In this document: positions 37,077 to 42,317 of the stretch, one piece after another
How the letters are laid out: the number at the start of each line of letters is the position of its first letter
Position numbering within the stretch: the stretch's first letter is position 1
Origin: a virus
DNA length: 42,341 nucleotides
Virus record (IMG/VR): IMGVR_UViG_3300006754_000040
Coordinates: 1-42,341 of that record
Direction: 5' to 3' (one strand)
Position numbers and translations under genes: made by a program
The notes under the pieces: model-generated
The model's database searches: none
What the model saw: only the letters and a program-made list of their open reading frames with translations
What the model was told of the DNA's origin: nothing

Positions 37077-40000
37077 GTGGCATTTCCCGGAAGCATCTAC
37101 GCACCCCCTGGCGTTTACACCCAGACTTTCTACGAAGACCCTAATGTTGGACTGGCGGCCTCCGTCACGCTTCCTCTTGTCATCGGGACAGGCTCTGAGG
37201 TTTTGGTTCAAGAAGGTCTCCTGCTGGTTCGGGGGTCCTCCTCCACTGTGGATCAGCGCATCGTCCAAGAGGACGAGGCAGGCCGCGCCGTGGTCAGCAT
37301 CTCGGATGCTGGACTCGTGACTCGCGGAGCCTTCGACGGCACACTTGCCCGCCTTCAGACCAAGCACTACCCCATTGTTAGCGGTAACGGGACAGGCACC
37401 ACAGCCACGGATGCCTCCAACGTCAGCGTCACAGTGAACGGCGACCCTGTGGTGGTCTTGGCTATCACGGGTGCCACGGGCATCCTGAAGCTGTCCGTCA
37501 CTCCTGAAGAGGAAGATGATGTCCGGGTCACCTACTACTTCAATCGCACCGACACCCTGATTACCGACACCCTTACGGATCAGGAGTCTGCCACTGGCCC
37601 TGAGATTTACGCCTCCGTTGGGGAGACTTACGCAATCACGGAAGGCTCCAACGATGAGTTGAGCTTCCTTGTGGACAGTTCTGAGACAGTAGAGGTGACA
37701 CTTACTGCGGGCGCTGCGATGACAGCAGCGGACATCGCAGCGAACATTGACGCAGCTTCTGCGGCGGCTGGAAGTACTCTCGCGGCAGTGACGGCTACCG
37801 ACAACTATGGGAACACGGTTCTCAGGCTTACTGCGAGTCGGGACATCTACGTCAACAGCGCCAGCGCCAACACCGCCGTGGGGCTGACTGCAAGCACGGA
37901 CACAGACCGGAACAAGGTCTTCTACACCATGCAGAGTCCTGTGGTGGACGGCAGAAACGAAGGTTTCGCCAGCACTGACCCTGCGGATGTCACTGTGAAG
38001 GTTGATGGCGTCCAGGTCATCCCGAGCGCCTTGGACGGTCAGACTGGAGCAGTCACCCTTCCGTTCGCTCCTGAAGTGGGTGCAGTTGTTACCTGCCAGT
38101 ATTACTTCAACTCCTGGCAGGACACTTTCGACTACCTCGCCCACAGGAATGTCACTGACATCCTGCTCTGCGGCGATACTGCTGACCGTTCGGACTACCT
38201 GGACGGGGCCGACTTCGTTCTTGAGGACGACCTCATTGTATGGGGGAGTGCGGTTCTGGTTCGGGCTGGGGAGCACACGGCTGGAAACACCTACTTTGAC
38301 GACACGCAGATTGCTGGGATGTTGGTAGACACTCGCTTCTACCTCGCTCCTTGCACTCCGGTGACGGATACGTCTGGAACGCCCTCGGTCGAGAACCGGG
38401 TTGATTGGAACCTTGCTGGCTTTGTTCCCACCACAGGGAACGGACGAAGCACGCCTCTTTCGGCTTCGACCTTTGCGGAAATCTCGAATAACCGCGTGGA
38501 CTTGGCTACCAACCGACCTGACCTTGTGTACGCCTACTGGGGATTCAACATCCAGGACGCGATGGATCGAGGCCGTGTAACGGTGACCAAGGTAGACGGT
38601 CTGGGCGGCACGATGACTTTGGAAGAGCCTGTCCCGGTCGGCGCAAGCGTCTGGGCTACCTTCTATTACAACACCCTTCAGGATGAGCTTTACACCCTTT
38701 CGGTTGCTTCGGAAGGCGGTTCCGGGACGGGTACTTACACGCTCGTGAACGGAGACGGAGACTCCGTCTTTACTCCTCTCTTTGTAGGGAAGTCGGCAGC
38801 CCTCGCTACCGTGACAATCCAGTTCCCCAGTGGTTCCGAAGCCACCCCGGACTGCCGTTTCGAGTCTCCCTCCAGCGCGACCCTCTTCACGGGTCCGGTG
38901 GAAGAAGACATCACAATCACGTTCGCAGACCAGGACGCCACCCTCGCTAAGTACACACTGCCGGGTGCGGGTCCCTACGCCATCATCAACAACGCTTCGG
39001 ATCAGTTCGACGTTGAAATCGACGGCGCAGCCATCACGGGCGGCGAGGTTGATTTGGGTGATCCCACGGGCCACGGAACTGGCTTCGGCGGCACCATCAC
39101 AGGCGATGAGATTGCCTACGACGCTGCCTCGGGTGGAATCACCTACGTCATCGACTCCACCAACGAGGTCGTCACCTTGCAGGTGGACACAGTTTCCGGG
39201 TCCTCGAACATGATTCGGGCTGTTGCTGTCCAGGGCGCTGCCCAGACGGGTGCGGACTATGTCACGGCCATCAATGTGGCTGCGATGGGTGACTTCGACA
39301 CTTCTGTGGCTGGCGGTGCATCCACCATCCAGCTTGCAGCGACCTCCTCTGACGTAGACGACTACTACGTTGGTTGGAACATCCGTGTCACTTCGGGTGT
39401 CGCCGCCGACGATATTCGCACTGTCACTGGGTACGTTGCGGCGACTCAGACGGCGACGGTCGGTGTTGCTTGGACAGGCGCTCCTGGTGTTGACACCTAC
39501 CACATCTACGACCCGGACACCCTTCCCACCATCGCCTCCACGACTCGGTTCGTGTCCGGCTACACCATCGCCGTTGCGGGTGAGTACGACTCCATCGACT
39601 TCACCTACACGGGAAGCGTCACGACTGGCTCCGGGGTCCTCACTGCGACGATTCCGGGACCTCTTGCCTACCCGACAGGAGCGAACTTGGCTGCGGCCAT
39701 TGAGCTTGCCATGAACACCCAGTTGGCCGCTGCTGGGACTATGTCAACTGCCGCCATGGCAGCCCAGGTGACCGTGACCGCTGATACCAGCGGCAGGATG
39801 GTCATCTCGCTTTTGCCGGACGCCACGGACACGAACGGTGGTTTCCTGGAGTTCCTCGACTCATCTGTGGCTGCTGCGAGTGATTTCTGCATCATGGCAG
39901 GGATTGACACGGATGCTGCTCCTCAGGGCGGGCAGGCAAAGCTGGTCAACAGCCAGATTGCGCGTCGGTTCACCATCGCGGCCCCGACTACGGGCGCATT

Positions 40001-42317: not shown

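Follow-up and report, generated by a model that had tools for sequence, protein, structure and literature searches.

How is a phage tail sheath of 1746 amino acids built, and what might so much additional protein do on a tail? Phage sheaths with extra domains have been described before, and the function of these domains is so far unexplained. The gene in question closes the window, by which we mean the whole stretch of 42 341 nucleotides of DNA analysed here. An initial annotation, made from the letters of the sequence, had taken its product for a tail sheath of about three times the usual size. A profile search agrees, in that residues 1386–1742 match PHROG 2839 (tail sheath) with E = 1.6e-24, and so does a comparison of lengths. 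The protein is ~2.4–3.6 times as long as the sheaths of Myrna (482 aa), phage G (579 aa), phiKZ (695 aa) and P-SSM2 (729 aa), the last two lengths being derived from gene coordinates. Searching phage records by tblastn recovers annotated sheaths, and the C-terminal core alone is matched in phage G and in mycobacterial, Gordonia and Rhodococcus phages. The start codon is GTG; in most homologues the same codon is ATG. The window is a virion structural region, containing matches to a major head protein (phrog_2522, E = 7e-54; positions 3793–4665, plus strand) and to a head maturation protease (a protease-like protein, phrog_18299, E = 4e-15; positions 185–1606, plus strand). An endolysin-like protein with a peptidoglycan-binding domain is encoded within the same structural region (positions 32012–32845, plus strand). 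A small protein with a zinc ribbon (Zn_ribbon_8, PF09723, E = 1.8e-10; positions 36349–36927, plus strand) adjoins the sheath gene upstream.

Typical sheath termini had been proposed to frame a central insertion of about 1200 residues, composed of repeated beta domains. The insertion is indeed present and the termini are those of a sheath, as indicated by the PHROG 2839 match and by the sheath fold of a relative described below, but its size had been underestimated. It runs from about residue 41 to residue 1400 (~1360 residues, 139 kDa, pI 4.05). The three related units noticed near residues 114, 303 and 499 are recovered by profile self-comparison, which pairs residues 91–157 with 280–346 (E = 8e-23), 107–157 with 475–533 (E = 9e-9) and 297–351 with 476–538 (E = 3e-9); we call this family A. 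The same comparison reveals a second repeat family, B, absent from the initial annotation, pairing residues 188–281 with 1069–1177 (E = 3e-14) and 180–228 with 685–736 (E = 2e-7). The insertion can be divided into two layers, a scaffold comprising the A units and residues 1291–1400, and outer modules at residues ~175–281 and ~620–1290. This architecture is well supported, and its elements are collected in Table 1.

Table 1. The giant tail sheath gene and the elements of its product, with positions in the window
Feature	Positions	Strand	Remarks
Giant tail sheath gene	37077..42317	+	Uninterrupted ORF, 1746 aa, 180 kDa, pI 4.11
Shine-Dalgarno-like GGAGG	37059..37076	+	TTTCGGAGGACAGACCC, directly 5′ of the GTG start
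N-terminal core sheath segment, residues 1–40 (YAPPGVYT...LPLVIGTGSE)	37077..37196	+	Conserved across family
Scaffold unit A1, residues 91–157	37347..37547	+	Profile repeat of A2, E 8e-23
Outer module B1, residues 175–281	37599..37919	+	Repeat of 1069–1177, E 3e-14; 44% mean pairwise identity
Scaffold unit A2, residues 280–346	37914..38114	+	Repeat; 282–346 at 69% mean pairwise identity
Scaffold unit A3, residues 475–538	38499..38690	+	Repeat of A1/A2, E 9e-9 and 3e-9
Outer module B2 region, residues 621–740	38937..39296	+	180–228 pairs with 685–736, E 2e-7; 39% identity
Outer module C, residues 741–826 (DDYYVGW...RTVTGY)	39297..39554	+	In most 1.75k-class sheaths
Outer modules, residues 827–1068	39555..40280	+	AlphaFold2 pLDDT mostly 85–95
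Outer module B4, residues 1069–1177	40281..40607	+	Profile repeat of B1
Outer module, residues 1178–1290	40608..40946	+	43% identity; occupancy 0.21 in sheaths <1300 aa
Scaffold return segment, residues 1291–1400	40947..41276	+	63% identity; in all size classes
C-terminal core sheath domain, residues 1401–1746	41277..42314	+	PHROG 2839; alignment to phage G gp178 and Myrna gp122

The outer modules are not uniformly distributed among relatives. Those at residues 827–1068 are largely missing from sheaths shorter than 1300 aa, and module C is not found in size classes shorter than 1.75k; each genome of the relatives that carry it has a single copy, and that copy lies in the sheath. In one relative (L087) the version of module C has a match (E = 2e-5) within a baseplate protein of Ochrobactrum phage vB_OspM_OC that is T4 gp8-like, whereas that of the window sheath itself has no tblastn match among phage isolates. 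A search of the insertion against Pfam and PHROGs gave no enzymatic or known carbohydrate-binding family. A match to DUF2460 at residues 304–345 fell below the curated cut-off and was set aside.

How widespread is this sheath? A first scan of IMG/VR gave 22 loci, and a second, using two conserved patterns inside the insertion, gave 421 stretches, of which 414 were confirmed as relatives. The N- and C-terminal segments both form the core: the PPGVY segment and the C-terminal domain are in one frame in 158 ORFs among the fetched loci (124 of them unique). An assembly error that had fused two genes, against which the initial annotation had cautioned, is ruled out by this. The same one-frame architecture recurs in many independent full-length homologues, on metagenome contigs and in complete genomes, and we found no point in favour of such an artefact, whose probability we regard as negligible. 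The sheaths fall into length classes near 919, 1170–1280, 1405–1443, 1495–1540, 1620–1680, 1700–1780, 1812–1880 and 2480–2485 aa; counts per class are approximate, as contig ends may cut some of the fetched ORFs. In a tree of the core the size classes group largely by clade. In the 1.75k clade the window sheath pairs with that of L006; the larger clade that contains the 1.75k sheaths also takes in the 2.5k forms. Two sheaths of 2480 and 2485 aa (L091, positions 6989–14428, and L104, with ORF end at 14446) have ~820 extra residues at the distal site, arranged as tandem bead-like repeats with half-units of ~45 and ~72 aa. Three giant sheath genes (L028, L029 and L030) lie on contigs that binning had assigned to bacterial MAGs (Actinomycetota, Verrucomicrobiota and one unnamed); these are probably phage contigs, and the bins give weak hints of a host at most.

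An AlphaFold2 model of a full-length relative of 919 aa (L114; pLDDT 81, pTM 0.62) has a C-terminal alpha/beta core together with an insertion that is repeated and almost all beta. Its residues 1–25 are of low confidence, as expected of an inter-subunit arm. Foldseek gives 94 matches of this model to solved structures at E ≤ 0.001, and the best 50 of the 94 are all contractile sheaths. The top match is the sheath of phage 812 (E = 1.8e-15, TM 0.71 by target length), followed by a Desulfitobacterium sheath protein, phiCD508, pyocin and AFP. The family is thus predicted to possess the sheath core fold, on a model of this relative rather than of the window's own core. The insertion of the window sheath was modelled as residues 41–1240 (pLDDT 84, pTM 0.57) and is mostly beta, so that the repeated beta domains proposed initially are supported both by the profile repeats and by the model. 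The placement of domains relative to each other is unreliable in both models (pTM 0.57–0.62). It had also been considered that the central part might belong to the core sheath fold; we rejected this, as residues 41–1240 have no match to solved structures at E ≤ 0.001 and the full-length relative matches sheaths.

Domains of FliD and flagellin are matched weakly by the modelled insertion, at E = 0.03 or above. Giant bacterial flagellins work in a similar manner, with conserved termini that polymerise and a huge exposed middle, in some cases containing repeats, that thickens the filament (PMC6248924). They are not homologous to the window sheath; the likeness is confined to these weak fold matches. 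The flagellin termini (D0/D1) are absent from the window sheath, in which a search for flagellin families at E ≤ 0.01 gave nothing and whose termini match tail sheath. In a library of viral structures the insertion matches mostly phage tail-type proteins, including A0A6J5LIZ5, annotated 'Tail sheath protein', from an uncultured Caudovirales phage (E = 6e-7). At 1117 aa this is smaller than the window sheath, and the global TM-score is very low, so the likeness is local only. The same library returns short modules of 73–80 residues at 0.7–1.7 Å, the matched region of the query not being reported; our guess would be that those of 73–75 aa (0.7 Å) correspond to module C.

Is every subunit of the tail of the giant kind? 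A core-sheath profile has exactly one match per record in 16/16 records of 152–536 kb, among them LR745208.1 (485 kb) and the circular genome of Tunturi 5 (309 kb), and no second, normal-sized sheath gene was found in these 16. With one sheath gene per record, every tail subunit should be giant, and the initial proposal that the insertion is carried on every sheath subunit is in this way supported by the relatives. From them we infer the same for the window phage, whose record is a 42-kb fragment.

The insertion is not conserved evenly along its length. Within sheaths of 1690–1900 aa the mean pairwise identity is 0.58–0.59 in the core (C-terminal core 0.58), 0.56–0.69 in A1, A2, A3 and residues 347–474 and 1291–1400, and 0.38–0.46 in the B and C modules and residues 827–1290. 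Indeed A2 (residues 282–346, 69%) is better conserved than the C-terminal core (58%). Comparing the window sheath with its nearest relative (L006, 78% identical), dN/dS is 0.06–0.12 in the scaffold and C-terminal core, and 0.20–0.26 at residues 691–800 and 901–1068. For this pair dN/dS is ≤0.30 in every stretch with dS near saturation, and no positive selection on the tip is seen. Two relatives, L145 and L174, have ~92% identity where their cores and scaffolds are compared and 66% distally, and their lengths differ by 199 aa; the drop in identity is limited to about residues 600–1030 of L145 plus B1. Modules have been gained and lost, and the arm has a base that is conserved and a tip that can be replaced. 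The insertion had originally been viewed as a possible receptor- or matrix-binding decoration. This fits the proximal repeats poorly, which are conserved like the core and look like a structural scaffold.

The insertion might then be mainly structural, with beta arms interlocking between neighbouring subunits and so stiffening or armouring a long tail, the variable modules being tolerated bulk. Scaffold units as conserved as the core make fixed contacts probable, the added domain of the phage 812 sheath has been proposed to stabilise the sheath disc (PMC9230969), and by mass balance the extended radius would grow by only ~3 nm if the packing were dense. However, the distal modules turn over between close relatives and range from no extra residues to ~820, which is unlike a load-bearing interface, and the tail of Tunturi 5 is only 167 nm long yet has a sheath of 1204 aa. 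As an account of the whole insertion we consider this unlikely, without dismissing it. Stiffening fits the conserved base, while adhesion or shielding fits best with the turnover of the tip and its likeness to a baseplate protein; both may apply, in different parts of the arm. Relaxed constraint alone would also account for the fast-evolving tips.

The explanation that we prefer, and regard as reasonably probable, is that each sheath subunit carries an arm with a scaffold forming a second shell and a variable, adhesive or shielding tip. The phage itself is probably a large myophage related to the huge uncultured phages. Residues 1–40 and the C-terminal 346 residues would form the standard sheath core, gripping the tube and contracting. 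From there the chain would pass through the conserved scaffold of beta units (A1, A2, A3 and the return segment), and the far end of the arm would carry further beta and beta-alpha modules. Each subunit would thus bear an acidic arm of 139 kDa. If six subunits occupy every 41.5 Å, as they do in phage G, an extended tail would hold ~144 of them in 100 nm and gain ~20 MDa from their arms over that length. The scaffold would form an outer shell moving with the sheath, and the distal modules would be exposed to the medium, providing a replaceable surface of high avidity. This would most likely serve for shielding, for weak adhesion to polysaccharide (extracellular or on the cell surface), or for both. 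Binding to a receptor or matrix by these fast-changing modules is plausible.

How thick would such a layer be? The tail of phage G is six-stranded with a rise of 41.5 Å, and its sheath is 24 nm across when extended and 32 nm when contracted (PMC8570332). Mass balance on these dimensions gives an outer diameter for the window sheath of at least ~30 nm extended and at least ~41 nm contracted, and more if the arms are loosely packed. A thick outer layer, as proposed in the initial annotation, is therefore probable, because the inserted mass and the tail geometry require it, taking phage G as the model. This layer would be much thicker than in textbook myophage tails, and bears on the cost of phage assembly, on diffusion and on adsorption.

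A layer of this kind could also act as a docking platform, along the length of the tail, for appendages such as fibres, whiskers or coils, and not itself bind the host. Phage G, whose sheath core is homologous, has an unexplained outer tail coil (PMC8570332), and the partial likeness of module C is to a baseplate-type protein, whose class attaches to other components of the tail. On the other hand, phage G bears its coil with a sheath of only 579 aa, and no partner protein was identified in this analysis; we regard docking as improbable. It would be more improbable still that proteases cut out the central region as the virion matures, so that an ordinary sheath is left. Some jumbo phages process many of their structural proteins, and the window encodes the protease-like protein noted above, but the scaffold and return segment are conserved like the core in all size classes, which is hard to reconcile with a discarded part.

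The sheath with an exposed arm can be compared with those of characterised phages. Tunturi 5, a jumbo phage of Tunturiibacter, is a myovirus whose sole detected sheath gene belongs to the giant family. Its sheath (PP885688, 1204 aa), encoded among structural genes, is related over most of its length at about 30% identity, covers 51% of the window query in tblastn, and is without most of the outer modules that the window sheath has from residue ~630 to 1080. By electron microscopy its particles are those of a myovirus; the tail measures 167 nm and is seen both extended and contracted (PMC11924767). A family member of 1204 aa is thus compatible with contraction and, judged by this distant relative, the giant sheaths may well contract. 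Closer is the sheath of the uncultured 485-kb phage LR745208.1 (about 1650 aa, single copy, unannotated in the record), which aligns with 87% of the window query at 45% identity and lacks ~66 residues at window residues 751–816, i.e. module C. The sheaths of phage G (gp178, 579 aa; structure known at 6–8 Å, PMC8570332) and Myrna (gp122, 482 aa) have a homologous C-terminal core (27–28% identity), but one small outer domain or less, compared with ~1360 inserted residues in the window sheath.

The giant family belongs, as an extreme variant, with the multi-domain sheaths already known and does not constitute a new kind of system. In a survey of 2022, type 3 was the name for sheaths of large phages that have at least three domains, frequently Ig-like, and roles in stability or adsorption were proposed for them (PMC9230969). 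As in the window sheath, both termini form the core and extra beta domains are inserted, and these sheaths are larger in larger phages. Such extra domains, inserted in the chain of the core, are seen at residues 41–1400 as repeats and as beta elements of the model, and from the position of the insertion and the mass balance they should lie away from the tube side. The type 3 examples compared here are 482–729 aa long, whereas the giant family spans 919–2485 aa and combines a variable tip with a scaffold of graded repeats. We found no description of the family in the literature searched, most subscription journals being outside its coverage. To our knowledge its proteins rank with the largest sheath subunits on record.

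The tails of the hundreds of uncultured phages that share the gene probably bear a thick outer layer that changes rapidly. It is more tentative, though a real possibility, that a lineage of huge phages uses the whole tail sheath as a high-avidity adhesin or shield, hundreds of subunits each contributing a scaffolded arm with a swappable tip, and that, as part of the same reading, the tip modules would undergo turnover in the manner of receptor-binding proteins. If this is true, the contractile sheath has itself been turned into a surface for interaction with host or matrix, in a large and widespread lineage. The natural series of sizes from ~920 to ~2485 aa, with its conserved base and variable tip, makes the function of outer domains open to experiment, and Tunturi 5 is one cultured relative that can be imaged.

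Two further features of the region may be recorded. An open frame of 820 aa runs antisense to the sheath gene (positions 37041–39503, minus strand), with a counterpart of 1730 codons in L024. We rejected it as a gene; the length of open antisense frames varies among relatives, and we interpret it as a shadow frame arising from codon usage. Some 7 kb upstream of the sheath gene the window encodes an actin homologue of the Volactin family (positions 29067–30089, plus strand; PF25216, E = 1.4e-76 over the full profile), a protein described in Haloferax volcanii (PMC10869688). LR745208.1 has a copy that is 62.5% identical, also just upstream of its sheath gene, and a copy 30% identical is present in the 595-kb uncultured phage LR756511.1.
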